Source: Branchiostoma floridae (Eukaryota > Chordata > Leptocardii > Amphioxiformes > Branchiostomatidae). Taken from it: a stretch of 64,000 bases of DNA. A program made the position numbers and the translations under genes. The DNA lies in contig NC_049989.1 of assembly GCF_000003815.2 (NCBI RefSeq), positions 19,737,337-19,801,336 on the forward strand. Direction: 5' to 3'. Every line of letters begins with the position of its first letter. Within the stretch, counting starts at the first letter, position 1. Positions 11,411-63,435 of the stretch are shown here, piece after piece. Under the pieces are notes generated by a model. It had not been told where the DNA came from. It was given only the letters and a program-made list of their open reading frames with translations, and did not search any database.

Positions 11411-11480
11411 ATGGGGATTCGCCTGTGTGCTGCTGGATTTACTTGTTGCATTCTGGCTGTCAGTGTCTTCAGTCAGACAG
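11411..11480 (+). CDS. gene 1 exon 1: signal peptide
   Basis: Starts at ATG in gcgATGG context (G at +4). It reads a hydrophobic leader rich in Ala/Cys/Leu/Val, ending S-Q-T before donor GTACGG. It closes at phase 1, the same phase used by the first exons of genes 2 and 3. I see no convincing acceptor just upstream, so this may be the first exon. Confidence 0.7.
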
Positions 11481-14400
11481 GTACGGTTTGTCTACGAATA
11501 TTTGTCTAATGTGATATATTATGTGCAATATGACAGTTACTCTAGCAACCAAATAGATTTGTTAACATCCAGACGTTTCAGGTAGCTTCCTATTTGAAGT
11601 ACATAATTTATCTTTCAGCCACAGACAACGAATAGTAGATACTGTCTGAAACGTCTGACCGTTTAGAAATCTATCCATGGTTGCTTGAGTAACTGTCGCC
11701 TTTAGCTGTTTCGATTGTTTCTTTTGTACTGAAAATGTTGTATTGATACAAACTTGGTCGTAGACAATGATAGAATGGCTAGGATTCGCCATTACACAGA
11801 GCTATAAATATTTACAAATATTCATAATATTACAAGTGTTCAAGTGATATTTTTTTTCGAAAAAAATTGATAAAGCCAAGCTTGTTGCATGATCCCATTA
11901 GTGTGACATGAGTTGTGAAATACGTATCTTAAGATGTCATTTATCTCAATCTGTATCGTATCTTGCTCCATTGTTTTCTAATTATGATTATCATGGTTAA
12001 ACATACGTTCACATGTTATTTCAAGAAAAATCATTTTACTTGTAAAATGTAACGTCTCGACAAATATGAATTTTGGTTATTTCTTTCAGCCAATCCACCG
12101 TCCACCCAGCCTTCCTCCTTCGTCCTGTCAGTGTGTACTGTACCTCTTATAGTACATTCTTGCTACAGCGTTCTCTAATTACATGGTTCTCTAATTAATC
12201 ATTATTGTTAAACATACGCTATGGAATGAGCTTCCACGGACCTGCTTTCCCATGGGATACAATCTACAACTGTTTAAGTCAAGGGTTATACACATCTTTC
12301 TTCACTATACAGTATTGTAACTCAAAACGTCTAAGTGGCTCCAACAGCCTTGTTTTGCGCTGACCTCTAAGTAAATAAAAAAAATACATTCAGACATCAT
12401 TTGAAGAAAAAAGTAAAAGATTGAGTTTTGACAAATATAAATTGTGTTATTTCTTTTAGCCAACCCATCGTCCATCCAGCCTTCTCCTGTCTGTCTGTAC
12501 TGTACGTCTTATAATACATTCTTGCCACTGTTTTCTAATGATCAGTATCACAGTTAAACACATATACATTCACATATCATTTGTAGAATTTGTACAAGAT
12601 AACGTTTTAATGATTATGAATTTGTTAATTTCTTTCAGCCAATCCGTCGACCACCCAGCCCTCCTCCTGCGGACTAACACGACTGAACGGCACGAGCGGC
12701 ACGTTTGCCAGCCCGAACTACCCCAACAACTACCAGGAGGACCAACAGTGTGTGTACGTGATACAGGTCACCCCTCCGAAGGTCGTGAGCCTCACGTTTG
12801 CCGCGTTCGACGTGGAAGAAGACTACGATTTCGTGTACGTGTACGACGGAGACACCACCGACAAACGGTTTCAAATAGGTAGGAGGGTAATTTACATATC
12901 AACTCTGTTATATTTCATCTGACCACTACCTCCCTCATAACCTCAATGAAAAGTGGCCTGCTGGCCGATTTGAGCTTCTCATGAATAAACAAAGTTCAAA
13001 CAAACAAACACATCGAAACGCATTCCATTCGACTTCATTCTCCCTTCCCTAGAAGGTTATGTGGTTATGTTGTCGGTAGGGTTCGTGTGTGTGGGAGGGT
13101 GGTGTGTGTGTGTGGGGGGGGGGGCATTGTTGGTGTTGTTCGACTGACAGACGGACAACATGGAAGGGAAAGTTGTAGAAGGCCAGCATAACCCAAGAAT
13201 GCCTAGATGGATTCTATTGATATTGGTATGTGGGTGGGTCTTGCTAAGTCCTGGATTTTGTTCCCCCTAGCAACCACTTACTGACAAAATAATTGTAAGG
13301 CGGACACAGGCTTGAACCGTGTATTAAGCGTAACGTTCAAAAAGTACAGTTAACTGGATATTTCAACAGATACTGATATCTTCTTTATAATGCTTGAGTA
13401 CATTGAGATTCTATTAGACATAGAAATTGACAATGTTTACTATAAGTAAAAACACTAACATAAATATCTGTCTTTGGAAGATCTTTGCATTCATTGTAAT
13501 TATGTATAGATAAAATGGTCCAAACTTAAATTGCAAATGGCTCGGTTATGACAATAAATGTTTACGCACAAGTAAGTATAGTCACTGTGTATATTGCTTC
13601 ATACCTACCTGGTGCTTACCTTGTTTTGCCATCTATTATTCAGTAAGGACACAAAAATAATAATGCACAGCACCATGCAGGTGTCACTAGTAATAAAACC
13701 TTTCATCTATAACAACACATACATGGCTTAATGACGTACATGCATTGTTGGTATCTAATGCGTACCTAATGAAAAAGAAATAATGTACCGGAACAAAAAA
13801 TGGGCATTAAGTATAGATTATTATACCTCTTCATGCGCTTGTCTTCCATCAAACACAACTATATAAATTGTGGGTAGCGCACAACTACAACGAATAGTTC
13901 ACACGTACATGTGAGTAAAAAAAAGTGGGGTATTTTAGTGGCGACCTTTAGCAATGCATTCAAGTTACCTGAATCCAATCATCTTTACTATCCTATGGGA
14001 CCTTTTTTGAATAGTGGTCGTATGGGAGTATGTTATGGCTAATAGATATTATTATTCAACCCATCTCAATCAATGATTCCTTTACGTGTGCACTCGTACA
14101 TCTCAGCCATTCATAAGGAAGAGTGCAACATGTTAATGCAGTATATATAGCACGATTATTGCATCATATGATCCATAACCTTATCCTGCACTCTCTTTTT
14201 CTGCATTTCCAGAGCAGTACACGGGTAGTACTGTCCCATCACCAGTGACGTCCACAGGTAATGTGCTCACCGTCCAGTTCAGCTCTGATTCGGTGGAAAC
14301 ATACAGGGGGTTCCAAGCCACGTATGCTGCTGTGGACAAAGGTATGACTGAAGAACAATTCCTACTATATTATGAACAGATATATGGCTAAGAAATTCTA

Positions 14401-17400: not shown

Positions 17401-20400
17401 AGAGGGGTGGGAAAACTGTGACGTCGTGCCTTGTGACAGTAAGTTTGAATTTATTTTGATTGGCCTTCTTTCATGTTTTATTTGTACTTATATGTTCCTT
17501 TGTGTACACCTATTTATTTCCTCTGTGATATGTTTTTATTTCCTTGTATGTGTACCTGGGTCCCGATGAAAATCAGTTTGTCAAAAGTGAACCGGGCTAC
17601 CCATGAGTCTGAAAATTTCAATAAAACAATGAACTATTTGTCCCTGCAAATTCTTAGTAGGAAACAATAAATAACTTTGCTATTTCTTGTGGTAGGCGTG
17701 GCAATCTAATGTTTCTTATCGTTAAAATTTTAATATTTTGGTAGCCATGTGAGAGTAGGTTTAGCCCGACAAATCGCGCTCCTAGCGGCCGGTCCTACAG
17801 CTGCAGCGGGGAGGGGCCATAAACCCTAGCCAGCGAGAGATATTCTGTAAACACAGGGTAACAGTAAATTATGATCCCTTCAAATTCTCGGTAAACGTTT
17901 TTTTTTTCAGTACAGAACGGCGCATTCTTTTGTTAACGAGTCTAGCCAATTAGTCAATGTTCCATTTCAACCGGATCCGGAGGACCTAAATCTAAACAAG
18001 TCAACAAAAAAGTAAGTTAGAGCATATTTCACGGGTTGGCAAATTCTGTTTTCTTCATTTTCAGTCATTGGCTGCAAAGATCCCGGCAGACCCAATAACG
18101 GAAAGAGGAAGCCTTTCCAGAAGTTCTACTGGAACCACGACAAGGTCACCTTCACCTGTAACCGAGGCTACAAGTTCCCGAAGAACTCCCCGCCCAACAA
18201 GGCGCAGTGCATCGCCAACCAAACATCAGGGGAGGGCCGATGGTCCTCAGCACTGCCACAGTGCGAATGTAAATCGAATACTGGAATACTAAGTTTTAAC
18301 TTCGTATATTTTGGGGCGAAGGGGTTTGTTGTGATCTCTCGCTGTTATGTTCACATACCCGCAAGTGCTACATGTACATGTACATGTACATGTACATGTA
18401 TGCACTATATATACATTGCACAGTATTATGATGTGTTGCAAACATCTCATTCGGTAAAGATCCAAAGGCCCAATCTTTGAGCATTGAATTCATATTTGTA
18501 AAGAATTTCAAGCCAGTCGAGGGATTTTTTTATTCAACGGGTCTGTTACTGCACCCTCTGAGAGTGATAGTGATAGCGGTTTTTGGTTTGACTGTTTTGT
18601 AATAACAAGCACAGTTTTCTTCAGTATTATTTGCATCATCATGTTGTTTTTTCACAGCGGACTTTGAGGTTAAACTTGTGAACGAACTGTTTGATGAGGA
18701 ATTGTACAAGAAAGCCCTGGCACCAACTTCTAGGGCGACTATCTACTTCCAGGCATACATTGATGGCATCATATCTTTGGTCAGTTAAAGGATAAACTCT
18801 TTTGTTTGTTTTCGTACCCGCTTTGATTGTGCATAATAATTGAATAATAGCATACCCTGTGATCGTATGCCCCCTCATGGCGTTACACGCCAGGTTTGTA
18901 CTGAACAGTACAAAATTTGCAGTTCTTTGATAACCATTTTTATTATTAAAATCGTAGGATGAGAAAGCTGAAATTATCAAGTCTGCCATCAAAGCTGAAT
19001 TCGTAAGTGGGATGCTTGTTACAATTCCATTTCTTTCACTATTAGAATGTCAGCATGTTGAATTCACCATAGACCTTTTTTCTGCTGGTTGCCTTTGTTT
19101 ATTCAAAAAGGTAATTTGTCATAAAGATGAATGTCTCCACAATAGTTGCACCTTTCCCACATGTACAGATATGGCAGGACCAGCGCCTACGCTGGGAGAT
19201 GGCAGAAAACGGAGATGTTGATCATCTGTTCTTCGGAGACGATCAACCATGGAAGCCTCTTTTGACGCTGAAGAGAAAGTATGTTAGTTTTTTTTTTAAA
19301 ATACTAATTCTCATAACAACTTGTGATATTTGTTTCTACATAGTCTAGCTTTATTCAACATACAACTGAAGTACGTTTCGCAAATCCATTTTTGCAGAAT
19401 GTGATGTAGGTAAGTGAAACTATCTGATAATGAACATATTCTAGAATCGAACAGTTTGTGTCGCAGGAAAGTATACCGTGTGAAATGATGATGCAATTGT
19501 TTTGGTTTCTTCAGTTGGGGTTAGGAGTTTATTGGAGTCTTGCTTTTTATATTTCAATCATTTTGAATTCCAATGCTTTTTGTCAGATTTGTTTCACATC
19601 CCCCCTTACCCTTTATTCACTTCTAACACGCCTTCCCTTCCGATTCCATGTTCCAGTTATTTTTCATGTTATTTTCTCCGACCAGCGCCGATGAACAGTA
19701 CACAGGCGGGTTCCCCAGGACTGTGATCAGACTGGACTCCACCGGAGACGTCCACTGGCCCATCGAGACCCTGACCACCACCACGTGTGACCTGGACCCG
19801 TTCCTGTTCCCCAAGGACAACATCACCTGCCCCATCTGCTGGAGCGCCGGATCGGAACACATCATAGGTGATTAGAATTCGCAAATAAAGATTTCATAGA
19901 ATTACAGAATGGACTTTTGTGCCAATTGCAACTGGCTAAATGGGATTATAGGGATTAAAGTACCTGGCTAAAAGGGATTAAAGTACCTAGCGGCGTCAAC
20001 TCGCAAGTCCTCGCTAGCTACCCTAAGACTACCATAGCAAAAAAAAAAAGAAAACGGGTTGAGATGTGCTCATGAAAATATCCCCAGGGTTTGCAAACTT
20101 ATCCAGGTGTACAAGGATGAAAAGGCCTAAACGCACCCCTTTTTTCGTGTTGCGGTCATATAGTTAGCCCAGCAAATATATCGCTATGCTGTTCATGTTG
20201 CAGAGTGTTAAGATATAGCACTCACTGTCTCTTATCATGTTTCCATCTACTTCGGTAAAGATTTTAGACACCCAGACAATAAAGACACATATGATAACAA
20301 TTACTCAAGCATCAAAATTCTATCTAGTTGCTTGAGTACTTGTGCATGTTTCTATCTATAGATTATGGTTGTGCTCACACGACTGTCTCTGGTTGTGCCC

Positions 20401-22418
20401 ATGGAGAATGCTCAAACGGGACCAGGTCAGATGACCCGAAGTTCCTGACGTGCAACGGCACCGTGGCGCCGGTGACTACGGGCGAGTGGAGCGGAGAAGT
20501 CACCCTCTCCACCGGGAACAACATGGCCTGCCTCACCATCAGTCTGGAGCGGGACCCCAGCTACCACTTCGCCACCACCCTCTCCCCCTGCATCATCCTG
20601 GTGGTGCTGATGATCATCACCTTCATGCTGCCTGTGGACAAGGGGGACCGGATCTCGTTCGGCGTCACCGTGCTGCTGTCCATGGTGGTGTCGCTAGTCG
20701 TCGTTACGGGCTTCCTGCCTGTCAAGGGGATCATCCCTTTCATTGGTGAGTTGATCAACCCCAATTTTGCAAGAAAGTGAGAAAAGATCCGTAGACAGGT
20801 ATCATCATGTTGGCAAGTCAATAAAAACAGTATTCTTTGTACACAACCAAGTATTTTATTCCACCGACAATTTCATTACCATTCGTCAATTTTCACAAGG
20901 CAATTTTGACTACGTCACTGCTTACATAATTATGTGGTCCTTTGCGCTTAGGACCTCACGTGTATGCGGCAGTTCATGTGAACGACTCAGAATTCCCGAG
21001 GAATGTATAATTGACCTGTCAAGAACTGTTTTTAGATTAAGACCTGCTTATATCAGTCTCCTGCTATGGCATAAAAGCGCTACAATTATTGATTTTCGGT
21101 TTGTATCCCAACGCTCACTGCCTCAGCTCTGTTGATCATCGTTGCCATGGGAATGATGGCGCTCTTCATGCTGGTCACCCTCTTCATCGTCATCCTCCAC
21201 AACAAGAAGGGGACGCTGTCACCGTGCGCCAGGAGGTTCTTCCTGTGCTACATGGCGAGGTGAGAAGACTTTAAACCCGGCCGTCTTTTGTTTATGTTTG
21301 TCAGGTCAATCTGCTAAAAAAAGAGCGCACATACTTAACCGCTGGCATCTAGCCCCGGTTCAATCTCCCCTGATTGGTTCCTCACAATATCGAATTATTG
21401 GGTGTTATCGGTTAGATCTAAAATAGAATGGATTACAAGAACAATGTGCTAGCTTGAGTGTGGTATTTGCGCTGTGCGCCTGGTCATGAGTATAGCATTT
21501 ACTATTCACAACCGTTTCGATGGGGCGGGGGTGGGGGGCTTGGCTCAAAATACAATGAATTGGACGAATTGTTTTCATGGTAACATGTTTATAATAATAG
21601 AAGTTTATTTGCAAGTTCTTGCCCGAGGGCTAATTGCAACATGAAACATACAGAGAATATAATAAACATGTATAAAATGAAATACTTTGGTATAGATAAC
21701 AATGGTGACAAGTGTAAACGAGTGACTATTCTATCAATGGTATGGACTGCTGAGAGCTACAATCTACGTATTTAGGGTTTGACTTCTTTTCTGGAAGCAG
21801 TGGAAGACGAAGTGTCCAAGTGTTTATAAGGACACGTGGCAAATTGGGATTAGCAACGTTTCTATTATATACTCTACTATTGCAATCCACCGGTACCATT
21901 TCAAGGGTTTAGGTTATTTTGATTTGCATTTGTGATGACTTCGTAACTTTTACTCTCAATGATGCTGAAGACCGTTCACTACTAGTAAACTTATCAGTTT
22001 TAACACATATTGTCTAAATTCACATACCAGAGTTCTTCTGATGGGAGACCTGAGCAAGACGGACACAAGAGGAAGAACATCTCTTAGTGAGCAGCGAAGG
22101 TCCTCCCTGCCCCGTAAAGGAATGAGCCTCACCGACGACGATAGTGATGTGGCTGCCATTGTTTTCGGACCCCCTATGGCACAATTACAAATCGCCATGA
22201 AAAACGAGCATCGCCTTGTTGACTTACAAAACCGCATGGACGAGCTCAGTGTCAATGTAGGTAGGCTGTTGTTACAATCTAATGGTAACGACGAAGAGAT
22301 GCCTACAGATTACATGTTGTTGGCAGATGTTCTGGATAGACTGTGTCTGTTACTGTACATCGTCAGTATCATTGTGGCAGTACCTTGTACTTTGTACTTG
22401 AGTCCACGTCGGCGCTAA
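11411..22418 (+). CDS. modular Cys-loop ion channel 1 (CUB-LDLa-FZ-kringle-sushi-nicotinic channel)
   Basis: The 15-exon model is 11411-11480, 12639-12878, 14213-14341, 14751-14870, 15278-15485, 15921-16072, 17214-17438, 18065-18268, 18658-18779, 18958-19002, 19169-19278, 19686-19867, 20362-20745, 21127-21259, 22031-22418. The sum is 2712 bases (903 residues plus stop), every junction is GT-AG and in phase. Domains by residue: signal peptide 1-23, short Ser/Thr-Pro stalk, CUB 34-146, LDLa 147-186, Frizzled CRD 187-306, kringle 307-381, sushi 382-449, ligand-binding domain 450-676 with Cys-loop C576-C590, M1 677-693, M2 699-721, M3 731-755, M4 878-898. It is predicted to be a plasma-membrane pentameric ligand-gated channel subunit with an outer crown of protein-binding modules. 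The -1' Asp and 9' Leu of M2 suggest a cation pore. The ligand is unknown. I know of no named gene with this architecture, so I give no symbol. Confidence 0.9.
11534..11694. mobile_element. MITE-like hairpin element in gene 1 intron 1
   Basis: The left arm gttactctagcaacc...cagacgtttca faces its imperfect inverse (tgaaacgtctgacc...ggttgcttgagtaac) about 160 bases on. Related pieces lie near 20285, 35228 and 40500, all in introns of the channel genes. Confidence 0.5.
11990..12520 (+). repeat. two extra copies of the stalk-exon acceptor region of gene 1
   Basis: The intron end and first bases of exon 2 (tttctttcag then ccaatccgtcgaccaccc at 12630-12656) are repeated with changes at 12081-12120 and 12451-12485. 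Each copy keeps a pyrimidine tract, an AG and the codons for N-P-x-S-x-Q-P. The preceding intron text (ttctaatnatnatnat...ttaaacata) is repeated too. Copy 1 could end at gtactg (12135) to make a 45-base phase-neutral cassette. Copy 2 has no good donor. They are duplication relics or rarely used cassette exons. Confidence 0.6.
12218..12385 (+). pseudogene. LINE C-terminal relic
   Basis: One frame reads L-W-N-E-L-P-R, then [10 protein letters not shown], the recurrent C-terminal block of L2/CR1-type LINE proteins (WNxLP ... FK). It is followed by an AT-rich tail. It is too short to assign a clade and lies in intron 1 between two stalk-acceptor copies. Confidence 0.5.
12639..14341 (+). CDS. gene 1 exons 2-3: stalk and CUB domain
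   Basis: Exon 2 (12639-12878) gives a Thr/Pro/Ser stalk, then C-G-L-T...S-P-N-Y-P-N-N-Y, the CUB hallmark, the Cys pair partner in Q-Q-C-V-Y and D-F-V-Y-V-Y-D-G. Exon 3 (14213-14341) completes the fold with F-Q-A-T-Y. Only the first cysteine pair of the usual four CUB cysteines is present. CUB domains bind proteins extracellularly, often with calcium. Confidence 0.9.
12950..14200. other. gene 1 intron 2; LINE tail and simple sequence only
   Basis: A short LINE-type 3' tail (gtggcctgctggccg...aataaac) lies at about 12952-13000 and a GT/G-rich tract at 13080-13125. I see no exon in the remainder. Confidence 0.5.
14751..14870 (+). CDS. gene 1 exon 4: LDL-receptor class A domain
   Basis: This single 120-base phase 1-1 exon holds six cysteines in LDLa spacing. 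The calcium-binding end is C-D-G-V-A-N-C...D-R-S-D-E. It is a complete domain of about 40 residues. In other proteins a CUB next to an LDLa is typical of Neto and LEV-10, auxiliary proteins of ionotropic receptors. Confidence 0.93.
15278..16072 (+). CDS. gene 1 exons 5-6: Frizzled cysteine-rich domain
   Basis: Exons 15278-15485 and 15921-16072 are joined at phase 2. They have ten cysteines in Frizzled order: C-Q-A-I-P, C-K-G-L, G-C-H-P-Q, V-C-S, N-C-N, then [18 protein letters not shown] and D-C-Y. CRDs of this type bind Wnts or lipids. The full cysteine set argues for a folded, functional domain. Confidence 0.92.
16073..16724. other. gene 1 intron 6, 5' part; nothing recognised
   Basis: No exon is recognised. 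An open frame at 16251-16463 has no family resemblance. The 3' part of this intron is the tandem kringle-acceptor array. Confidence 0.5.
16725..17213 (+). repeat. three tandem 163-base copies of the kringle exon start
   Basis: Units at 16725, 16888 and 17051 each begin right after a splice-acceptor-like AG. Each carries about 62 bases of the kringle exon, then an intron-derived segment containing the next acceptor. The real exon follows at 17214. The exon-like part keeps the frame (C-F-H-G-N-G-D-N-Y), but each copy runs on into a stop with no donor. Units 2 and 3 are nearly identical, so the duplication is recent. Confidence 0.9.
17214..17438 (+). CDS. gene 1 exon 7: kringle domain
   Basis: This 225-base phase 1-1 exon has six cysteines and the kringle signatures N-Y-R-G, W-A-N-L, N-Y-C-R and R-P-W-C. 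It follows the Frizzled CRD directly, the order seen in ROR receptor kinases. The Asp at the end of E-N-C-D-V-V-P-C-D is shared with gene 2. Confidence 0.93.
17755..17875. repeat. dispersed intronic repeat fragment
   Basis: The core cgcgctcctagcggccgg and the following ccctagccagcgagag match sequence at 62072-62150 in gene 3. It looks like a decayed mobile repeat rather than a coding unit. Confidence 0.5.
18065..18268 (+). CDS. gene 1 exon 8: sushi/CCP domain
   Basis: This 204-base phase 1-1 exon has four cysteines (G-C-K-D-P-G, T-C-N-R-G-Y, Q-C-I, Q-C-E) and the conserved Trp before the last Cys (W-S-S-A-L-P). It ends at the non-standard but usable donor aat|GTAAAT. CCP repeats of LEV-9 act in clustering acetylcholine receptors in C. 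elegans; here one repeat is fused to the channel. Confidence 0.9.
18366..18402. repeat. TACATG hexanucleotide microsatellite
   Basis: A self-complementary tacatg array of about five units in gene 1 intron 8. Confidence 0.85.
18658..19867 (+). CDS. gene 1 exons 9-12: Cys-loop ligand-binding domain
   Basis: Exons of 122, 45, 110 and 182 bases. They code the N-terminal helix and first strands, D-E-K-A-E-I-I (compare D-E-K-N-Q in nicotinic subunits), W-Q-D-Q-R-L-R-W, the loop A region [17 protein letters not shown], and the Cys-loop [15 protein letters not shown] with exactly 13 residues between cysteines. An N-glycosylation site lies inside the loop. The nicotinic loop B Trp is absent. Confidence 0.92.
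20362..20745 (+). CDS. gene 1 exon 13: end of ligand-binding domain, M1 and M2
   Basis: It codes T-G-E-W (as in nicotinic receptors), R-D-P-S-Y-H, M1 with the conserved Pro, then K-G-D-R-I-S-F-G and M2. M2 reads 0' Arg, -1' Asp, 2' Ser, 6' Thr, 9' Leu, followed by L-P. The exon is 42-45 bases longer than in genes 2 and 3 because of an extra cysteine-rich loop near its start. Confidence 0.93.
21127..22418 (+). CDS. gene 1 exons 14-15: M3, cytoplasmic loop and M4
   Basis: Exon 21127-21259 gives M3 ([10 protein letters not shown]...) and H-N-K-K-G. Exon 22031-22418 gives a loop of about 120 residues with an amphipathic stretch, then [11 protein letters not shown], the standard start of M4. The protein ends P-R-R-R, stop TAA 22416-22418. 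The intron between them carries a LINE 3' tail. Confidence 0.93.
21580..21660 (-). mobile_element. LINE 3' tail fragment in gene 1 intron 14
   Basis: gcccgagggctaattgc and the adjacent AT-rich tail are the reverse complement of the tail at 55425-55475. Only the 3' end survives. Confidence 0.5.
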
Positions 22419-22945: not shown

Positions 22946-22951
22946 AATAAA
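22946..22951 (+). promoter_or_regulatory. poly(A) signal of gene 1
   Basis: AATAAA about 530 bases after the stop codon, the first strong signal downstream. Confidence 0.5.
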
Positions 22952-24712: not shown

Positions 24713-24837
24713 AGTGTTGCGCGGTCGAAAATTCGAATACCTGATTCGGACGTTGGAACATTGCTGTTTTTAACACTTTTTGTTCGAGGGCGCCAAATTT
24801 CTGGCGCATTTCGCATCAAAACATGTTGTTTTTTTTT

Positions 24838-49900: not shown

Positions 49901-49984
49901 CGTGTCTGCTGTTTCAAATTGTATCATCCCAAACCCAAAATGTATCATCCCAAACCCAAAGTCCTACCCAAAGCTCCCCAACTC
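49867..49984 (+). CDS. gene 3 ATG exon: signal peptide and stalk
   Basis: [16 protein letters not shown] leader, then a Q-T-Q-rich stalk with a duplicated V-S-S-Q-T-Q block; donor GTGAGT at phase 1. An acceptor at 49762-49763 suggests the exon starts at 49764 with 5' UTR. Confidence 0.8.
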
Positions 49985-52900: not shown

Positions 52901-55900
52901 TAATTTAAAAAGAAAGAATATTTACCATCTTCCATCTAAGACTTCAAAAACGCTATTTTGTTGTGAGACGATTATTTCAGGACCAATCATTTGTTAATAC
53001 ATTCTTACCAAACGTTTTACCAGCTAGGTGAGAAAACAATTTCGTTTCAGTAGAATCATACTGATTAGTTGATGATACGGATGACCTTTTTCTGGGCGCC
53101 CAAAACTTCATGCGAGCATAAGAGAAAAAAAGTTGGGCATAAAAGTCTAAATGGTACAAAATTCTAAACGCACAGAACGTGGTATACAAAACAATAAGTC
53201 AGTCATCTTACTTATTAACTCTGCAATAATTATTTCCAATCACAGGGACGTTTGATGGTACAACCATACCCAGACCATTGACGTCGACTGAGAGCTCCAT
53301 GGTTGTTAAGTTTGAAACCGACAGTTATGCAAACTTTAAGGGATTTCAGGCCTACTACTCTGCCGTGGATAAAGGTACGAAAACTAACCTATCTTTGAAT
53401 GTAAGTTCATCTGTGACGGTAGTTAACATAATGATACAGTTTTTTTAAAAGACTTGATATCCGTACACAAACTAAAGCGCTTTAATTTGTGTACGGATAT
53501 AAAGTCTTAAAAACTGTATCATTATATTAAACTAACCTATCTGTTGCTATCATCCACGCATTCATTTCAGTACGACTCATCGGACACATGAATAATATAA
53601 ACACGCAGCTGTGTTAAATTAACTGAACAGCAAACACAACCAACATATTCACATGTGTGTGGGTCGTGTGGCGTAACAACACTATGTTCGGTGATCAGAA
53701 TAAAGTGGTCCAGGGTTTCAATCCTGACATGACACCGATATTGTGCCTCTGGGAAAGACACTGTACACGACTTTCCTCGGTTCACTCGGGTATAAATGAG
53801 TTTCGGATAGGACGTTAAAACACGTCCTTGAGAAGAGCCACACCTCCAGCACGTTAGAGAACCCACCAAACGTATCAAAAAGAGTAGCTAGGGATACTTC
53901 CATGTGAGTGGTTCAAAACCTATGGTCCGGGGACAATTACTGTCGTATTGAGGGCACCTGAGTTAGCACCGACTAGCATCTCCCATGAAATTCTGTGCAT
54001 AGACGAAAAACAACAGATTTAGTACATATTATAAGTGACATGTCACTTTTTTTTTGATCGGCAGCATTTGCTAACTGTGTAGTCGGCCAGTACCGGTGTG
54101 ATAATGGAGTGAGCTGTATAGAGTCTTCGAAACGGTGCGACGGGAAAATTGACTGTACAGACGGCAGTGACGAGGATACAAGAAATTGTGGTGGGTATCA
54201 ACCATTTTTCAAACAATGTAACAACATGCGTGCAACAATGTTTCTGAACCACTCCTGCCAGTAAACTCTCTCCCCTCTCTTTATACACAATATATATACA
54301 ATATACATATACAAAATCCAAATTTTGGAACAAAATATTAAAAAGTGCACTGGATAAGAGGCAAACAACCAAAGGTTCTGCCGAAAAGTGAGAGTTTGTG
54401 TTGCACCGATTAAGGAGCACCTGCTTGGCCTACCTATGACCTGTACGATGGTTGAAACAAGGCAAAACAAATCAAATCAAATCATACAAATCACCATTCA
54501 CATGCACATAGCTGATACATGTCTGAGCGTAACTCCCGGAGAAGCTTTAGTGGAAGAGAGTAAGATCATAACATGAAAGAGAACACTGAAATAGGGGATC
54601 TGCAATATATTGTTTATCATTGGAACAAGCCTTTTTTTTTCTTATTTCCAGCTTGTCAAGCCATCCCACCAAATCTGACGCCATGCAGGGGCCTTGAGTA
54701 CAAAATGACAACACTCCCCAACCCACTGAACAACAGTCACATCATGACCGACCAGATTGAAAACGCTTTACCGTTTTATCAACCGTTCATTCGACTCATC
54801 AACTCTTACTGCCACCCCCATGTTGCACAATTTGTATGCGCCACCGCTTTTCCTCGCTGCGAGTCCAGGTACACAATATCCATCTCCGTACAACGCGTTT
54901 GGCTATAAGTTTCATTGTTGTTATCACACGTCAGCTTTTAAAAAAAAGTAAATATCTACTAATACTGCGCAAAACTTCCATACATGCACCAGTCTATAGT
55001 AGAGTGGAATTTGTTATCACCAAGCACATTAGGGACATTGTCCCTGGATAGTTTCAAAGAATGCTTGCAGATAGATGTGCAAAAGTTAGGTGTGACGGGT
55101 CCTTCGGTGTAATATAACCAGCTGCTGCCGCGCCGCGTGCCTGCGAAGCTGGTGTGTTACGCCGGAGGGCGGTTATACCGGCTATATAGATACAGATACA
55201 GATACAGTCAAATCTCAAGCTCAAGTCCCGACAGGGCAGTCATTCAGGCAACAGCTAGCCCCTGGACTGGATGCCGGGAAGTATGGTCATTCAAACCCAT
55301 CAAATAGCTTTAGAGGATTTAGATTTAGATTAGACGTAATTTCGAATTCTCTTTTGATTTATCTATAGATCTGATTTACCTTCTCTGTTAAGTATACAAT
55401 TATGTATACCACTACTTTACTTTGCCTGCAATTAGCCCTCGGGCGTGAATTTGCAATAAAGATCATTATCATTATAATTCATAGGTGACCACTAAAAGTG
55501 GCCTTTAGGACTCGAAAGCATCACGTCCTTCTGAAGATGTAAGTTAAGCACAGCTGGCAGCTATGAACCACTGATAAGCCACATAATCATCTCTATTCGA
55601 GGCCATTATTCACTACAGCATATTATATAAAACATCTATACATCAACAATAATGTGATCAATAATAATGCCAACATACAGTGGTATGCTCGCTTCCATAT
55701 GGTAGAAAATTAAATTTCACAGTGTGTCGTGTTGTTATAGGTATAGCAACCATGACGTGTTTTTTGTTTAGTCCTAGCCTCAGGCAGCTGCTGCCCTGTC
55801 GGTCTTGGTGTGAGGAGGTGAAGTTCTCGTGCTCCTCGAATGACTCTTGGTCAGTTTTCCCCAGCTGCGAGATTTTCCCTCACACCAACTGCAACAACGT

Positions 55901-56795
55901 CAGGCCTTCAACGACTCCGGAGGGTGGTAAGTCTGTCTTGATGTCAGTTGTTACCTGGGGGAAGAATTAAGAATTACAATTGGGGGGTGGGGGGTGGGGG
56001 TGTGTTCTCACCAGTAACCTAAGACCTTTTTTATGGATTTGTTAAATTTTGGCATGTTAGTATTCAGTGAAGTACCCTTAAACATGGCGATTTGGGGCAC
56101 CATATTTCCAGTGATTTTAAGATTTTAGACTGGCATCCCCCATCTTGAAAGTAGTTTAGTATGGACCATTTTATCAGCTTTTCCCGGTCTTGATAGGTAG
56201 ACTGTGTTATGCAAGCTGTATTTGGCAGCAGATAATCAGCACTTCTCCAAGCAGAAGTTAGGCTCTGGCTTCTGTTAGACGTCCATTTAGTGTTGTAGTC
56301 TGGCTTTCCATTTTTATAGCTTTTATTTGAGCTATTGTATTGATATATAATGTGCTCTTTAGCTCTCCAAGTATCAAGATCAGAAGTAGAAATAAGAATT
56401 TGCTTTACGGCTAAGGGTATCGAACAGCTTAGCAAAAAAAAAAACACCTTTGCCCTCACTGGAAAATACTTGACGGAGGCTTGTGTCCTATGGATTATCT
56501 TGGAAAGGGCGGAGCAGATCGATTATTTTGCAGAACCTAACTTATTGTGTGTCCTTACAGTTGAGTGCTTTGAAGGGAATGGTGTAAACTACAGAGGGAA
56601 CGAGGCCAGAGATCCTATAGCCGGAGTCTCTTGCACACCATGGGAGGATGACCCCATCTACGGAGAAGAGTTTCCTTGGGCGAACCTCGTGGATAACAAA
56701 TGTCGCAACCCTAATGGCGACCGCTATGGGCCATGGTGTCTCACAGGAAGTGGATTCGAGTACTGTGACCTCATTCCCTGCAAAAGTACGTTATC

Positions 56796-56865
<70 letters not shown>

Positions 56866-58538
56866 AACTTGGGAAAGGCACTTAACACGACCTTCCTCAC
56901 TTCACCCAGGTGTAAAAATGGGTACCTTACTTCGGTTTCTTTTGAAAAATCCCCTTTACCTTCTGTCCGTACTGTATGACCCTGTGTATATGGCGCTGAT
57001 GATATAAGTTACTTACTTGAGTGCACTGCCACATTGTCCTCGTCTGCTCAAAAGAAAAAAAAAGCAGTAGAAGATAGAATACAAATAGCCCACCATACCA
57101 CTCTGCGAGCTCTTAATGACAATCGGCAGCAATATGGCTGATGGTCTCCTTAAATCTTAATGATTTTTAGATATCGACCGAAGATTCTGATTAAATAGAA
57201 TTATGAGGATTATTAGGTACCCAAACCAGATTTGTCCGGGTTCAGGCAAAAACAACCACCCTGCAAGAAGTTATTGGGTCGACTTCACCCCGCTCCATGT
57301 CGGTGCGGATGAATCCAAAGAGAGGCAGATATGTGGTCTGCTCTGTACTTATATGGTGGAGGAAATCACGTGATTCAGGATCGACCAATCAGCGCGCAGT
57401 ACAGTTCGCTGCTATGATCAATGCAGTCAAATGTTTACCCTTTGACCGCATTAGCTCTTTGTTGTATAACTAGGTATGTGACGTGATTGACGTTTAAAAC
57501 CATATTTTAGCAATGACATTTAGCTGTGGCGTCATTTTGCCATGAAGAGGATGACATCGAAACGGCTGCTCTTCAAAAACATGTGACTGTGAACAAACAA
57601 CTTTGATATCCAACCATGTCACGATAGCATCTTGCTGATTTGATTATCAAAGTACATGTCTTTATGTTACTATAGCTTCCGGGTGTAAAGATCCCGGAAA
57701 ACCTTCGTTTGGACAGAGGAGTCCGGTTCTGAAGTTCTACTGGCCTCAAGACAAGATCACCTACACCTGTGACACGGGGTTCAAGTTCGCTGAAGATACG
57801 CACCCAAATACAGCCCGTTGTATTACTGTTAACGAAACATCAGGAGAGGTCAACTGGAAAACACCAAAACCTAGATGCGAAGGTAAGATATAAAAAGGTA
57901 CAGGTGGTCTCATAGAATTTTGATGCACGGTATTCGAAGGCACAGCCTCGATTGATGTCAACTACAATTACTAGAAAGGCCACGTATATCCGTTCCATCC
58001 AAAATCTTTTGCAAAAATTGACCATTCCAAAGTTATTTTTAACAACTAAGGGACAGCTCACCCCAGCTCTGTGAAAATATGAACTCTTGCCAAAACACCT
58101 CAAGGGAAACTCAAGTGACCCTTGCAATCCGTAATGTAAAAGCTACCCATATGCTAAATTCCAGGACATTTGGCAACTGGAACCCCCGCATTACTTCTTT
58201 TTTTTGCAGAGATTACCAACAAGTGACCTCATATCTTAGCCAATCGGTCTTTAGAGCGACGTTTTGCCTTTCTCCTTTTCTTAAAACAATGCCCTCATTG
58301 TGTATGAATGAATGTAACTTTGTTTCGTTGTGTTCTAGTCGATCAAGAATACAAGGTCCGAAAAGACCTTCTGAGTGAAAATGTCTACGACACGGGGGTA
58401 CCCTCTACTAATCGATTGAAAATAAAAGCATACGTGGTCAACGTCATCGACTTGGTAAGTACAATACGCAGAAAACAGCGCTCAAAATTCTGCGATGAAC
58501 AACAATATTGTTGTTGAAAGATCCTGCAACGGTAACAA

Positions 58539-58590
<52 letters not shown>

Positions 58591-61500
58591 TTAAATAATT
58601 ATTCAATATCGTCTCAATTGTGTTTCTTTCAGGATGAAAAGTCAGAACAGATAGTAACGTCCTTCAAGGCTGAATACGTGAGTCCTGAGTTCCCTTTGTC
58701 CTCATTATACTGCCATACTACAATATATAATAGTGTTAGACTGGAATCCAGCCTATAATAAGTAATTTAAACTCATCTACCCTTCTCTCTGTCATGAAAA
58801 AATGACAATGTTTTACTCTTTTGATGGATCAGATAATAAAAAAAAACATTTCATTCACATTTCTACTGGTTTTGACTTGAATCCCCAATTGGCAATATTT
58901 CTGGGACAAATTTAGGATTGTACACCAACCGAAAAACGATTAAGTTGACAGCCAACATATCTACATGACATCTCAACTACANNNNNNNNNNNNNNNNNNN
59001 NNNNNNNNNNNNNNNNNNNNNNNNNNNNNNNNNNNNNNNNNNNNNNNNNNNNNNNNNNNNNNNNNNNNNNNNNNNNNNNNNTAGTCTCATGTACTGTGTT
59101 AATGTTGTTTTATGTAACGTGTTTGTCTTATGACTCAAGAAAGACTGGTAATTCATTGTCTGAATTGTACTCACTAATGGAAATCTTTTGAATAAACAAT
59201 AAACCTACAATGTTGACTTTCTTCGAATTTGCCACAGTCCTGGATAGACAATCGGTTGAAATGGGAACCCGACAGGTACAAAGAGTTATCCAGGATCTTC
59301 GTTCTTGATGAACGAGTCTGGAGACCAACATTAACACTGGAGCGAAAGTAAGTGGTGTACTTTCTTGTTTGTTTTTTTTTTTTTTTTATATTACGAGGGG
59401 GTTCAGAAAGTAATGCCATTGGTTTTATAATAGGCTCATTTTGTCATCCAATGAGTTTACATTTTTTCAGAAAGGTAAAGACATATATCTTCCTGGGATC
59501 AAAACATCTCAATTTGCTGTGCAGGTTTTATTAGTTGAATTCAAGATGACCACAATATGATTTACGTTTGGCACTGTATTTGTAAGCAGCGACACCTATG
59601 CTGCAGTGTGATCCTAGTGATAGACTATGTATATTTTGCGATAAGAACCACATGCATGTAGAAAACGAAATACACTTTGTTCTAGAGTGTTCACTGTACA
59701 ATGATCTGCGCAATACATTCATTAATGCTACACATGTACATCAGAAATATGCACACACGATAGACTGGAAAATCTCTGTAACTTCATCTACAAATGTTTT
59801 AGGAAGGGAGAAGATGCATGTAAACTATAGTATATGTATAAATTTGCGTTTACTACCTTTTGTATCAAACTGACGGCATTTAGCCCCAATGGGGCATGAA
59901 TATGCAATAAACTTCTATTGTCATTGACATTGATATGAACAAGTTAGCCTTGCATGCCTTGAGGAAGGTGACAGATAGTCACCGAAACGTCGGTGGAATA
60001 AAGCACTTGGTTATGTACACAATCTTGTTATTCTGATCAAGTCATGTTTTCATACTTTAATTTCTTATTCAAATGTATTTTTCAGTGCAGACACAGGCTA
60101 CAGTGGCGGATTCCCTACGACACAGGTGAAAATTGAGCACACCGGTGAAGTCACCTGGCCTATAAAGTCACTGGCTACCACGACCTGTACCCTGGACCCT
60201 TTCCTCTTCCCACAGGATAACATGACATGCGCAGTGTGTTGGACTGCTGGTGAAGACGACACGATAAGTATGACCGCGTTACCCTCACCATCATCACTAT
60301 CAGACATTATGGAAATCTTTATTGACACGACAACAGTACAGCGACTTTCGTAAGGTCTAAACGTATAACAACTACTTACAGTACAACTAAACAGATATAT
60401 ATGGATATCTATAGGTATGAATAAGTCAACATATTGGATCTAGCATCTTATTTACACTATTGGTTCTAGGGTATAAGCATTCGTGGATATATTTGCCTAC
60501 TTGAACACAGTGAGGGTTATCGCATTCCAGAATGTAGTTGAATTTATCTATCGAACAGAGAGTAGCAAGCGGAAAGTAATGACTACTACTAATGTGAACA
60601 GCTCTGTGCGTTTGTCGTTGTATCGTGAACAATCCATAACAAAGTCTGCTAGACTGAAGGGACCACCCTATTAGATCAATAAAAAAATGACGTTCGTCTT
60701 CGATCTCATTTGGGCAGAATGGACAAAACCTCTGGTCACGGGGAATTTTAGTATATCTTCTGGCTTCTATGTTTAGTTTGTGACTACAGTTTCTTATCTT
60801 TGTAATTGCTCTACGTTCAAAACTGTGTACATTCGAGAGATACTTTATTGCCTCTCTAAAGCCTCTAAAGCCTCTATGTATTAATGTAAAAGTAGCTGCC
60901 ATCAGTTTATAAGCAAAATCAATCGAACTATTAAAAAGAGTTGAACCTAAATAAAGAGACTCTTTTACACAACCAATGCTTTATTCTCACCGACGTTTCG
61001 GTGACCGTCTGTCACCTTCTTCAGGGCAATTCTAACTGGTTCACATTGTACTGCAGGACAGGTGTCGCTGCTCACAGTTCAGATCCGGTCACCAAACGAA
61101 AAGTATTCACATACGTACTTTATGCACATATTTACAATGCGGTCCCAAACGTAAAGGAGTGAACCAGTCAGAATTGCCCTGAATAAGGTAACAGGCGGTC
61201 ACCGAAACGTCGGTGAGAATAAAGCATAATAATATATAATAATGAAACTGTTCACGGATGAGAGTTGAACCTAATACATATTACGTGATAAAATAGAGAA
61301 CATGCATACGATTGAAAATCCAAAGTAATTTGTGTCTTTTTTTTCCACCTCGGAGGAAAATGCATGGGAGCGCTTGCTTGCTACACAAAGCTAGCAAAAT
61401 GAATTTGTGCATAAAATAGGGAAGATGATATACTAAACGGGCAAGCATATTGGCATAGGTGTGTGGGGTTCATTGGCCATCGTCCGAGCACGAGAGTAAA

Positions 61501-63435
61501 GATGCTCTGTAATATTTTTGATTTGTACTGTTTTAAGGATAAAGAGTTGGGACAATGACATTAACACCGTACCATTAGCTTATTACCAGTTGGACAGATG
61601 ATACAGATATCGAAACAATTGACCTCCTTGACATACTGTTTATTTCTTATTTTTTAAGAGTGTTCCGATTCGACAACACATAAAGACCAAAAGTTCCTGA
61701 CCTGCCAAACTCCACAGGCCGACATTATCACGGGAGAATGGAGTGGAAAAGCAACCCTTTCAGCCATAAACAACACTGCCTGTCTGACTTTGAAGCTCAA
61801 AAGAGACCCCACTTATCATTACGCCACAACCATCTCTCCCTGCCTCATCCTCATCATCCTCATGATCATCACCTTCATCATGCCCATCGACAAAGGTGAC
61901 AGGATCGGGTTCGGCGTCACCGTGCTGCTGTCCATGGTGGTGTCGCTAGTCGTCGTCACGGGCTTCCTGCCTGTGTCAAGCACCCTGCCTTTCATTGGTG
62001 AGCTTATTTTCCATGATATTTCATACTTTGTAAATGATAAGCGACACAGGGGAAAACTAGCCTGACTAAACCGCGCTCCTAGCGGCCGGCCCGACAGTTG
62101 CCGCCCCTCAAAAGCCATCCATTCCTAAACCTCAGCCATCGAGAGTTGGTGTAAACGAAAGATTAGGAGAAAACAATGATGTTATTCATTGTCATTAGAA
62201 CTATGTTAGAGTGTCTTGCCATATAGGTATGGACTGACAAATTAATCACGAACATTTGATACATAAGATTAGATTCTCAATACCATTTGCCAGCCAATAG
62301 CTAGCGTTTCTTATTCGGTGGCTACTGAAACGAACATGGCCTTCTGTCACCATGTGTACCATTTGACATTTGTCTTTTATTATGCTGCTGATTGAAAGTT
62401 GCCTTTCCCTTTTCTGCAGCTATACTGATTATCGTGTGCATGGCTCTTATGGCTCTATTCATGCTGTGGACGGTCGTCATCATCATCATACACGACAAAA
62501 AGGGACCCGTCCCCACATGGGCGCGGACGCTCTTCCTGAAGCACTTAGCAAGGTAAGGCAAATATCGTGTTGCAAGGTCCCAGATAGTGGTCCCTTTGTA
62601 CCCATATCAACTCTGGGATATTATCTTTGTGTATTGAAATGGGCCGATACAGTACTGGGTCACATATTGCTATGTGACCTAGATGAAAGAGGAGGCGATT
62701 CTCGTTTTCCAATTATTCTATTGCCAGTTCTATGACAATTTACCTCAATCACATTTTGATATAATGTGATATGATGGACGGCCACTCTCACGAGTAAGGC
62801 AAGTCTGATATAAGAGACTTTGATGTATCATTATTCAGGTTTTTATTTATCGTTTCCGTACTTTATAATCTTCATGTGAGCTAGGGGACCGTCGCAAGGC
62901 ACGTTGATAAGCATCCATTCCCTTATACTCTATTGATACCAAAGATACCGAAATTCACACTTTGATCGTGCTTGTATGATCGTGATGGAATATTTACCTG
63001 GTGTCCTGCACTTTTAGGGCCCTATTGATTGGTGACATGACCAAGAAGTTGAACAGGGAAGAGCCAATAGGAGACAATGCCAACAAGAACGTGAAGGACA
63101 TCGAAGGACTTACCTGCCACACATTCAAGATGTACGGCGAGGGCCCATCTGCCGGAGAGGACATTTCACCACCGAAAGTGAAGAACGAGGTCGGATCTAC
63201 CCTCATTAGGTTGAACGGAAGCGTAGATGAGTTGAAGCTCAGTGTTAGGCAATTGTCGAGCAGCATCAGTGCTCTGGCACAGGCAAGTGGCGGTGATGGC
63301 GATGAAGAAGTTGCAGAGTACGCTTTGCTAGCTAAGGTGCTCGACAGGGTGGGGCTGATCTTCTATGTCGTTGCCATCATTGTGGCCATCCCATGCACCC
63401 TGCTGATTGGTCGTACTCGCGTCTTACCTTCCTAA
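49867..63435 (+). CDS. modular Cys-loop ion channel 3
   Basis: The 15-exon model is 49867-49984, 52622-52834, 53246-53374, 54065-54190, 54652-54868, 55772-55926, 56561-56785, 57676-57882, 58339-58454, 58633-58677, 59238-59347, 60086-60267, 61659-61997, 62420-62552, 63018-63435. The sum is 2733 bases (910 residues plus stop), in phase throughout. Order: signal peptide and short Gln/Ser/Thr stalk to 39, CUB to 153, LDLa to 195, Frizzled CRD to 319, kringle to 394, sushi to 463, ligand-binding domain with Cys-loop to about 670, M1-M2 to 727, M3, loop, M4. It has the same predicted role and site as its paralogs: a membrane channel subunit with an extracellular protein-binding crown. Introns are the longest of the three and full of mobile-element debris. 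The gap at 58982-59081 lies in intron 10. Confidence 0.9.
50044..50500 (+). pseudogene. LINE C-terminal relic and 3' tail in gene 3 intron 1
   Basis: [10 protein letters not shown] and the following hydrophobic/Leu-rich stretch are the C-terminal block of a non-LTR element. The tail has aaggcccaaaggccactcaagg, then atgattgtaactgtaa. It starts 60 bases after the gene 3 first donor. Confidence 0.65.
50608..51775. mobile_element. inverted-repeat element with C/G-homopolymer tandem arrays
   Basis: The ends ccggtgtgacagcga and tcgctgtcacaccgg are perfect 15-base inverses. Inside the left end are several units of agcgatctcgccccccc / ggggcgaaatc. The inverse type (ggggggcgaaaacgctag) sits at the right end (51700-51760). 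The middle (50820-51690) is AT-rich and unrecognised, with no transposase frame. Its right border joins directly to a SINE. Confidence 0.7.
51776..52034 (-). mobile_element. tRNA-derived SINE, best copy
   Basis: On the minus strand from 52034: tggggccgcgtagcacagtg (A-box-like), then ggttcgaatcc (B box) about 50 bases on, then cccttgggaaaggcacttta and a body shared with the other copies in this window. It is a tRNA-head SINE, not a functional tRNA: no acceptor pairing or anticodon arm is kept. Confidence 0.75.
52622..53374 (+). CDS. gene 3 exons 2-3: CUB domain
   Basis: [26 protein letters not shown], then K-G-F-Q-A-Y-Y. It keeps the first cysteine pair like gene 1 and lacks the second pair like both paralogs. 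Confidence 0.92.
53428..53525. mobile_element. 98-base hairpin in gene 3 intron 3
   Basis: Arms of about 43 bases (ataatgatacagttttt, gatatccgtacacaa and inverses) around a short loop; MITE-like. Confidence 0.75.
53655..53965 (+). mobile_element. SINE copy in gene 3 intron 3
   Basis: tgggaaagacactgtacacg, ggtataaatgagtttcgg, agagaacccaccaaacg and cacctgagttagcaccga match the copy at 210-505 in order. Confidence 0.65.
54065..54190 (+). CDS. gene 3 exon 4: LDL-receptor class A domain
   Basis: 126 bases, phase 1-1, six cysteines; [13 protein letters not shown] has all usual calcium-site residues. Two residues longer than its paralogs before the last Cys. Confidence 0.93.
54652..55926 (+). CDS. 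gene 3 exons 5-6: Frizzled cysteine-rich domain
   Basis: Exons of 217 and 155 bases joined at phase 2, ten cysteines (A-C-Q-A-I-P-P to N-C-N-N-V). The intron between them carries a LINE 3' relic and a dispersed repeat. Confidence 0.92.
54990..55480 (+). pseudogene. LINE 3' relic interrupted by a dispersed repeat
   Basis: One frame reads [14 protein letters not shown] and D-S-F-K-E-C-L, a LINE C-terminal block. The repeat at 55096-55205 follows, then a tail with attagccctcgggcg and tgcaataaag. Confidence 0.6.
55096..55205. repeat. dispersed repeat, pair with 46277-46400
   Basis: Same tcggtgtaatataacc to ctatatagatacagataca unit, ending in a GATACA run. Confidence 0.75.
56561..56785 (+). CDS. 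gene 3 exon 7: kringle domain
   Basis: 225 bases, phase 1-1, six cysteines; N-Y-R-G-N, W-A-N-L, K-C-R-N-P-N, G-P-W-C. No upstream exon-start duplicates were seen here, unlike genes 1 and 2. Confidence 0.93.
56797..56862. repeat. CA microsatellite beside gene 3 exon 7
   Basis: Uninterrupted CA array starting 12 bases after the donor. CA arrays near donors can bind hnRNP L and affect splicing. Confidence 0.9.
56868..57065 (+). mobile_element. SINE body fragment in gene 3 intron 7
   Basis: cttgggaaaggcacttaaca, acttcacccaggtgtaaaaa and attgtcctcgtctgctc; same family as 1890-2075. Confidence 0.7.
57676..57882 (+). CDS. gene 3 exon 8: sushi/CCP domain
   Basis: 207 bases, phase 1-1; G-C-K-D-P-G, Y-T-C-D-T-G-F, R-C-I-T, R-C-E with W-K-T before the last Cys. 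Confidence 0.9.
58339..60267 (+). CDS. gene 3 exons 9-12: Cys-loop ligand-binding domain
   Basis: Exons of 116, 45, 110 and 182 bases. Motifs: [32 protein letters not shown], Cys-loop [15 protein letters not shown]. Confidence 0.92.
58540..58590. repeat. AT microsatellite in gene 3 intron 9
   Basis: tatata array; frames across it are artefacts. Confidence 0.9.
58982..59081. other. assembly gap, 100 N
   Basis: Exactly 100 N in gene 3 intron 10; no coding sequence is lost in my model. Confidence 0.99.
59595..59940 (+). pseudogene. LINE C-terminal relic and 3' tail in gene 3 intron 11
   Basis: [17 protein letters not shown] and Y-N-D-L-R are the C-terminal cysteine block of the same type as the element at 23190-24712. 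The tail has ttagccccaatggggcatgaa and aataaac. Confidence 0.75.
60426..60902 (-). pseudogene. LINE C-terminal relic, minus strand, gene 3 intron 12
   Basis: [28 protein letters not shown]; a frame disturbance follows F-I-D-L. This is the most complete C-terminal block of this LINE type in the window; RT core missing. Confidence 0.75.
60968..61225. mobile_element. inverted-repeat element carrying the gtcaccgaaacgtcggtg motif
   Basis: The left end tgctttattctcaccgacgt and its inverse at the right form arms of about 65 bases that include cagaattgccctgaa. A single copy of the motif occurs at 59955-60005 and a decayed one at 37150-37215. Confidence 0.7.
61659..62552 (+). CDS. gene 3 exons 13-14: end of ligand-binding domain, M1, M2, M3
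   Basis: C-S-D-S, F-L-T-C, T-G-E-W, R-D-P-T-Y-H-Y, M1, [14 protein letters not shown] and M2, then M3 from 62420 with I-I-I-I-H-D-K-K-G. After M2 it reads P-V-S-S where genes 1 and 2 have P-V-K-G. Confidence 0.93.
62060..62160. repeat. dispersed intronic repeat, pair with 17755-17875
   Basis: cgcgctcctagcggccgg and agccatcgagag; same unit as in gene 1 but in a different intron, so it moved independently. Confidence 0.5.
63018..63435 (+). CDS. gene 3 exon 15: cytoplasmic loop and M4
   Basis: I-G-D-M-T-K-K-L starts the loop; amphipathic [11 protein letters not shown]; then [12 protein letters not shown] and M4. C-terminal R-T-R-V-L-P-S before TAA. Confidence 0.92.

Follow-up and report, generated by a model that had tools for sequence, protein, structure and literature searches.

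Can a channel subunit of the nicotinic kind carry a long multi-domain sensor arm in the same polypeptide, and if so, what would such a receptor be for? The question is raised by a 64,000-nucleotide stretch of the lancelet Branchiostoma floridae genome (assembly GCF_000003815.2, contig NC_049989.1, positions 19,737,337 to 19,801,336 of the forward strand; C11:19737337-19801336 in our contig naming, hereafter the window), in which three tandem genes, A, B and C, are predicted to join CUB, LDLa, Frizzled-type (Fz), kringle and sushi modules to a whole Cys-loop channel. To our knowledge, textbook animal channels of the nicotinic kind carry no such outer arm. We consider it about an even bet (probability roughly 0.5) that these genes belong to a lancelet-expanded set of modular receptor channels, in which a cation pore is gated or positioned by exchangeable heads that recognise surface-borne or polymeric ligands.

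Models built from splice sites and reading frames gave 15 exons each for gene A (11411-22418, 901 amino acids), gene B (32421-44190, 1047 amino acids) and gene C (49867-63435, 908 amino acids). The intron phases are the same in all three (1,1,1,1,2,1,1,1,0,0,2,1,1,2), with a single terminal stop in each; GT-AG borders at all 42 introns were a condition of model building and hence no independent test. These independently rebuilt models bear out the preliminary description, which had proposed three 15-exon genes, each with five extracellular modules and a whole nicotinic-type channel, joining in phase with one stop each, and its span of 11411..63435 runs exactly from the ATG of gene A to the stop of gene C. 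A self-comparison of the open frames in the window placed the exons in three co-linear sets. Exon 1 of each gene was picked by signal-peptide and donor scan only, for exon 6 of genes A and C there is a choice of acceptors within a few bases of each other, and exon 10 measures 45 nt in genes A, B and C. The features, with Pfam bit scores and the ligand-binding domain abbreviated LBD, are as follows:

11411..11480, + strand: gene A exon 1, ATG and predicted signal peptide (signal-peptide and donor scan)
12639..14341 (12639-12878, 14213-14341), + strand: gene A exons 2-3, CUB, 93.0 bits
14751..14870, + strand: gene A exon 4, LDLa, 34.2 bits
15278..16072 (15278-15485, 15927-16072), + strand: gene A exons 5-6, Frizzled-type cysteine-rich domain, Fz 61.3 bits
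17214..17438, + strand: gene A exon 7, kringle, 41.1 bits
18065..18268, + strand: gene A exon 8, sushi, 22.7 bits
18658..19867 (18658-18779, 18958-19002, 19169-19278, 19686-19867), + strand: gene A exons 9-12, LBD, Neur_chan_LBD 77.4 bits, with the 45-nt exon 10
20362..20745, + strand: gene A exon 13, end of LBD, membrane helices M1 and M2, start of M3 (gene model, Pfam)
21127..21259, + strand: gene A exon 14, M3 (gene model)
22031..22418, + strand: gene A exon 15, cytoplasmic loop, M4 and stop, Neur_chan_memb 67.5 bits
32421..32991, + strand: gene B exon 1, predicted signal peptide and serine/threonine-rich 14-residue repeats (signal and donor scan, repeat scan)
34919..35849 (34919-35131, 35721-35849), + strand: gene B exons 2-3, CUB, 72.9 bits
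36370..36489, + strand: gene B exon 4, LDLa, 30.7 bits
36871..37687 (36871-37084, 37545-37687), + strand: gene B exons 5-6, Fz, 56.5 bits
38353..38577, + strand: gene B exon 7, kringle, 63.7 bits
38977..39174, + strand: gene B exon 8, sushi, 25.4 bits
39607..41587 (39607-39728, 39976-40020, 40689-40798, 41406-41587), + strand: gene B exons 9-12, LBD, 82.3 bits
42117..42458, + strand: gene B exon 13, end of LBD, M1, M2, start of M3 (gene model, Pfam)
42923..43055, + strand: gene B exon 14, M3 (gene model)
43794..44190, + strand: gene B exon 15, loop, M4 and stop, Neur_chan_memb 72.4 bits
49867..49984, + strand: gene C exon 1, predicted signal peptide and serine/threonine-rich linker (signal-peptide and donor scan)
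52622..53374 (52622-52834, 53246-53374), + strand: gene C exons 2-3, CUB, 87.5 bits
54065..54190, + strand: gene C exon 4, LDLa, 32.6 bits
54652..55926 (54652-54868, 55778-55926), + strand: gene C exons 5-6, Fz, 54.0 bits
56561..56785, + strand: gene C exon 7, kringle, 41.9 bits
57676..57882, + strand: gene C exon 8, sushi, 16.2 bits (below the 20.7 cut-off), homologous to gene A exon 8
58339..60267 (58339-58454, 58633-58677, 59238-59347, 60086-60267), + strand: gene C exons 9-12, LBD, 81.5 bits
61659..61997, + strand: gene C exon 13, end of LBD, M1, M2, start of M3 (gene model, Pfam)
62420..62552, + strand: gene C exon 14, M3 (gene model)
63018..63435, + strand: gene C exon 15, loop, M4 and stop, Neur_chan_memb 76.5 bits

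The domain search of joined models that the preliminary description had suggested as a check returned CUB, LDLa, Fz, kringle, sushi, LBD and Neur_chan_memb in that order for genes A and B, all seven above the curated Pfam cut-off, and six of the seven for gene C, whose sushi module fell short (16.2 bits vs 20.7 needed). The extra ectodomain amounts to about 420 residues in gene A. Because the pairwise protein identities are only 460/871, 441/877 and 456/884 (50-53%), we regard the three as old duplicates and reject the possibility that an assembly duplicated one gene.

Local repeats border several of these exons. A 163-nt tandem array of 3.6 copies at 16681-17274 runs into the start of the gene A kringle exon, and since its unit holds the acceptor and start of that exon, part of the exon seems to have been duplicated. 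Upstream of the exon 2 that gene A uses, the beginning of this exon recurs twice in decayed form, at 12090 and 12450; a perfect 171-nt tandem duplication (49557-49900) extends into the start of gene C exon 1; and a 42-nt array of about nine copies (32523-32903) encodes the mucin-like 14-residue repeat of gene B exon 1.

How widespread is this architecture? The genome (513,431,437 bases in 431 contigs) was searched with the channel half of gene B and the Fz-kringle-sushi part of gene A, which yielded 89 channel loci and 148 ectodomain matches, further exons of the same loci being set aside (127 channel matches, 38 of them judged by position to be such exons). An identity of 43% or more set 65 channel loci apart as the family, and the remaining 24 were taken as other Cys-loop loci. 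Within 30 kb upstream, and on the strand of the channel, 59/65 family loci have a match to kringle, Fz or sushi, vs 0/24 other loci. The six family loci without one are C16:2043301, C16:2406590, C16:2345468, C221:480268, C4:18898404 and C19:8582874, the last of which matches lectin, YWTD and CUB in their place. When a channel from another locus served as second query, its best 150 matches contained one further family-like locus, C16:1676172. The total thereby reaches about 66 loci, some of them probably alleles, and 60/66 have an ectodomain module of any kind. Chance co-location of arm and channel exons was rejected, as rough arithmetic (148 ectodomain matches, 30-kb upstream windows, 65 loci, 513 Mb, one strand) expects fewer than one such locus vs the 59 seen. 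In a tree, the family and seven ordinary nicotinic acetylcholine receptor (nAChR)-type sequences of the same genome fall on opposite sides of a 100/100 branch. These comparisons support the view that the window contains only a few of the genes of an expanded lancelet family spread across the genome. Family-like lectin and LDLa exons with no adjoining channel match also occur at C5:4743573-4747615 (there with a kringle as well) and C1:24529789-24530693; in these places the channel may have been lost or missed, or the exons may belong to a donor gene. In keeping with a lancelet genome, 18 homeodomain matches follow one another at C16:10.05-10.64 Mb, 17 of them on the + strand, a pattern that a single large Hox cluster would give, and PMC7269912 describes an assembly of B. 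floridae with 19 chromosomal scaffolds; a search for the GFP family gave no match, as it did in every control.

The family loci are of two types, and what precedes the common modules varies among them. Fifteen are window-like (type 1), and in 13 of them, the window genes included, a CUB match lies upstream of the other modules; for C13:9346286 and C19:1374354 no CUB was among the matches listed. Type 2 was sampled at ten loci of 20 kb each (one of 13.5 kb), not chosen by head type but each with a prior kringle match; two of them (C256 and C8:17.3) are probably alleles. The exon order Fz (two exons)-kringle-sushi-channel recurs in 10/10 and LDLa in 7/10, and CUB was absent at E<1 from all ten stretches in a search with a local CUB profile run without a positive control. 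Three joined type-2 models put kringle, LBD and Neur_chan_memb above the Pfam cut-off in each case and sushi in two; Fz stayed below it (17.6 and 15.9 bits vs 32.1, the third with no match) and at type-2 loci is identified only through homology to the window exons. Heads in this sample comprise a C-type lectin (5/10), YWTD repeats (4/10, three with a lectin too) and an extra kringle (3/10), and no head was identified at C16_1.71. When one lectin head served as genome query, the 13 best of its 150 scored matches, its own included, all lay upstream of family channels. EPN or QPD together with WND are the calcium-sugar motifs of C-type lectins; three of the five lectin heads have EPN and WND, one has EPD and WND, and one has neither. 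Across the family, a lectin match lies within 30 kb of at least 15/66 loci, a YWTD match within 40 kb of at least 12/66 and a CUB match within 40 kb of at least 26/66, all lower bounds drawn from 34 of 150 lectin matches, 40 of 142 YWTD matches and most of 151 CUB/LDLa matches. The CUB count consists of 13 type 1 loci and 13 others with CUB 12-40 kb upstream, perhaps as part of a different gene. On C9 and C12, related YWTD exons also form large clusters of their own, without family channels.

Do arm and channel form one gene or two? A secreted multi-domain protein and a separate channel, encoded by neighbours that were repeatedly co-duplicated and then wrongly joined in our models, would produce a similar picture: most ectodomain modules sit on phase-1 exons, so that an in-phase junction is unsurprising, the intron between sushi and LBD measures 900-2275 nt at four of the ten type-2 loci, and the joining was made on genomic sequence. 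That intron spans only 389, 432 and 456 nt in the window genes, however, and 205-379 nt at the other six type-2 loci; by its length it leaves little room for a promoter and a signal exon at 9/13 loci (205-456 nt), and the pairing itself is kept at 59/65 loci. Pairwise distances in the ectodomain and in the channel are correlated over 12-13 loci (r 0.80-0.92, with 0/2000 permutations as high) and within 8-9 type-2 loci (r 0.33-0.84, with 0 to 53 of 2000). At the ten type-2 loci 109/120 expected exons could be placed at window phases, with no internal stop in the longest assembled runs; as the exons were sought at those phases, this agreement is a fit and no blind test. Given the short introns and the genome-wide pairing, two wrongly joined genes are unlikely, and we would put their chances at very little. 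Fusion of sensor arm and channel in one predicted gene is well supported by the same evidence; this part of the preliminary description was strengthened by the short introns, the genome-wide co-occurrence and the correlated distances, while the family across the genome, and the fact that CUB is only one of several heads, had escaped it.

What kind of channel does the arm sit on? Its best PDB matches are the muscle nAChR alpha subunit first, then beta, neuronal nAChRs and 5-HT3A, and both Neur_chan_LBD and Neur_chan_memb exceed their cut-offs in A, B and C as they do in the three joined models of other loci. We compared 13 channel models (three from the window and ten type-2, one likely allele pair among them). 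All 13 have Cys-loop cysteines 13 residues apart with FPxD between them, a CxxC after the Cys-loop, and an M2 with GDR at its inner end and leucine at 9'. A cation-selective M2 is marked by an acidic residue at -1' and a basic one at 0' of the inner end, with no PAR, and by this signature the pore looks cation-type. The ligand site reads differently, with the loops located by visual comparison against nAChR numbering: the vicinal cysteines of loop C occur in 0/13 models (they are present in 5/8 of the ordinary Cys-loop sequences listed), the loop D tryptophan is kept in 12/12, the loop A position is not tyrosine in 12/12, and the loop B-C region is shortened or remodelled, with extra conserved cysteines. 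As read from these models, the principal-side acetylcholine box is lost in the family, and acetylcholine is therefore an unlikely agonist; a classical acetylcholine receptor was rejected on the aromatic and vicinal-cysteine box.

Loss of the agonist box in every sampled model, and a remodelled region after the Cys-loop with extra conserved cysteines, would also suit a non-conducting receptor or decoy, whose channel half would be an oligomerising membrane anchor for a pentavalent adhesion or microbe-binding arm. The pore, however, appears to be maintained. The pore exon, exon 13, is the best conserved part between window genes (66.7% A-B, 70.1% A-C), M2 is nearly invariant, with the charge ring and 9' leucine in 13/13, and the ratio of nonsynonymous to synonymous substitution rates (dN/dS) of the pore exons is 0.255-0.281 in four of five pairs and 0.526 in the fifth (exon 14 alone). 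We consider a silent anchor distinctly improbable.

The reading of these genes as modular receptor channels starts from what can be read in the genome, namely the order of the domains, splice phases that match, the joint occurrence of arm and channel across the genome, a pore with a cation-type signature and loss of the principal-side acetylcholine box. A subunit would comprise a signal peptide, an exchangeable head, an LDLa-Fz-kringle-sushi stalk, a nicotinic-type LBD and four membrane helices, the head being CUB in the window and a C-type lectin, YWTD repeats or an extra kringle elsewhere. Five subunits would form a cation pore under a crown of about 2000 residues; the heads might bind extended or surface-bound ligands, glycans in the case of lectin heads, and contact would be passed through the stalk to the LBD so that the pore opens. 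We favour receptors for surfaces or polymers because the family is large and dispersed, carries varied heads on a common stalk, and combines a conserved cation-type pore with a dismantled transmitter site. Their role might be that of contact chemoreceptors or ionotropic pattern-recognition receptors, arisen in parallel to, and not derived from, the chemotactile receptors of octopus. The more specific proposal, that some 60 ionotropic pattern-recognition receptors gave up the transmitter site and use swappable heads to generate current directly on touching glycans, microbes or matrix, is put forward tentatively, as a possibility that we would not expect to hold in full.

The same arm could alternatively be a built-in auxiliary subunit that places or clusters the channel at synapses in cis, with a small transmitter opening the pore via the altered LBD. 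Fz-kringle proteins of the ROR/MuSK type act in trans for nicotinic receptors, and the window genes put CUB-LDLa, Fz-kringle and sushi on a nicotinic-type subunit. According to the accessible text of PMC9083331, LEV-9 (sushi) and LEV-10 (CUB, LDLa) are needed for nicotinic receptor clustering in C. elegans, the LDLa module of LEV-10 being dispensable for it. About 66 dispersed loci with different heads, on the other hand, are more than a clustering tag seems to need, and in PDB rankings ROR2 comes behind the kringles of plasminogen and HGF for the gene B kringle, and NETO2 behind cubilin, enteropeptidase and neuropilin-2 for the gene C CUB. A clustering role is thus rather unlikely in our estimate, if the more serious of the functional alternatives.

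Several points weigh against surface- or polymer-sensing channels as the explanation. A small-molecule site may have gone unrecognised in the altered LBD, and sensory or immune use is guessed from the size of the family, the variety of its heads and the loss of the transmitter site. What ties the lectin and YWTD heads to the channels is the position of their exons and the rank of the matches, rather than any complete spliced model, and the fused subunits themselves are gene models at this stage. The phase agreement at the ten type-2 loci is a fit only; 11/120 exons stayed unplaced, and for C6_16.09 and C17_2.16 exon 13 was counted as the bare tblastn stretch. Donors are uncertain for exon 9 of the same two loci, exon 6 of C4_31.29 and the kringle of C8_17.3. 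The locus count probably includes alleles, such as the C256 and C8:17.3 loci, which are 95.8-99.9% alike over their five longest matches. Among five paralogue pairs, dN/dS was 0.07-0.60 in 14/15 comparisons, a point in favour, and 1.16, at very low synonymous divergence (dS), in the ectodomain part of C16_18.13/C16_18.65; the ectodomain dS of that pair (0.034 vs 0.14-0.17 in the channel exons) suggests gene conversion. These paralogues, at 18.13 and 18.65 Mb of C16, also have a threonine/glutamate-rich insert in exon 9.

Elsewhere in the window, a long open reading frame (ORF) at 2884-5085 (+ strand) contains a secretin-type 7tm_2 domain by Pfam and is adhesion-GPCR-like; the predicted structure of the ORF at 2884-5082 had a mean pLDDT (predicted local distance difference test) of 38.1 and was not used. 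Reverse-transcriptase ORFs of retroelements lie at 8286-9563 and 23615-24769, both on the - strand (Pfam).

How do these genes compare with known systems? Like nicotinic and 5-HT3 subunits, the family has an LBD with a 13-residue Cys-loop, M1-M4 and a cation-type M2; unlike them, it has an extra ectodomain, a CxxC after the Cys-loop and a remodelled loop B, and is without the loop C vicinal cysteines and the loop A tyrosine. The architecture of animal Cys-loop members is called stereotypic in the accessible text of PMC549065, a rule that a chordate family of some 60 such genes would break. The same text reports fusions of bacterial pentameric ligand-gated ion channels with PBP-I, Cache and MCP-N, and the preliminary description's statement that known Cys-loop subunits carry only an LBD outside the membrane was accordingly too wide; extra N-terminal domains are said, in the available part of PMC9897478, not to be found in eukaryotic relatives. 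DeCLIC and other bacterial members resemble the gene models here in having, within a single chain, an additional extracellular module ahead of the LBD on its N-terminal side, yet DeCLIC is prokaryotic and has two beta-rich jelly-roll lobes (N-terminal domains NTD1 and NTD2), whereas the family has CUB, LDLa, Fz, kringle and sushi by Pfam. PMC4795631, in the portion available, discarded terminal parts and named domain architectures as further work, and ordinary nAChR expansions in amphioxus are described with no mention of extra domains in the accessible text of PMC6354393. Our literature search, confined to open-access papers, found no description of an arm-plus-channel architecture of this kind among the papers listed. 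If true, this would make the family the first case of a multi-domain ectodomain on Cys-loop receptors of animals, and nature would have provided a test of how LBD gating can be coupled to a large foreign module. It may represent a sensory or immune receptor class that exon-level annotation would label nicotinic receptors or lectins.

The modules of the arm have precedents of their own. Fz and kringle are adjacent in the ROR/MuSK receptor kinases; the window genes differ from these in having a four-helix channel, with no kinase found by Pfam. LEV-10, NETO, SOL-2 and LEV-9 likewise bring CUB, LDLa and sushi modules to bear on ion channels, but are described in the accessible text of PMC9083331 as separate single-pass or secreted proteins, unfused to the channel. 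Lancelet channels of this design may sense things quite different from textbook nicotinic-type channels, and octopus, with its chemotactile receptors, offers a precedent for channels of nicotinic origin that have left neurotransmission (PMC11526382, PMC10338036, both in the parts available). Up to 26 of them are reported for Octopus bimaculoides, and the cephalopod receptors are, like the lancelet family, expanded nicotinic-derived cation channels that have lost the acetylcholine response; they differ as a separate lineage for which the accessible text mentions no extra ectodomain (PMC11526382). Cephalopod chemotactile receptors are marked by gating through hydrophobic molecules besides their nicotinic origin, and the likeness of the lancelet genes to them is one of sequence. 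The lancelet genes would thus offer a parallel to the octopus receptors in a close invertebrate relative of vertebrates.

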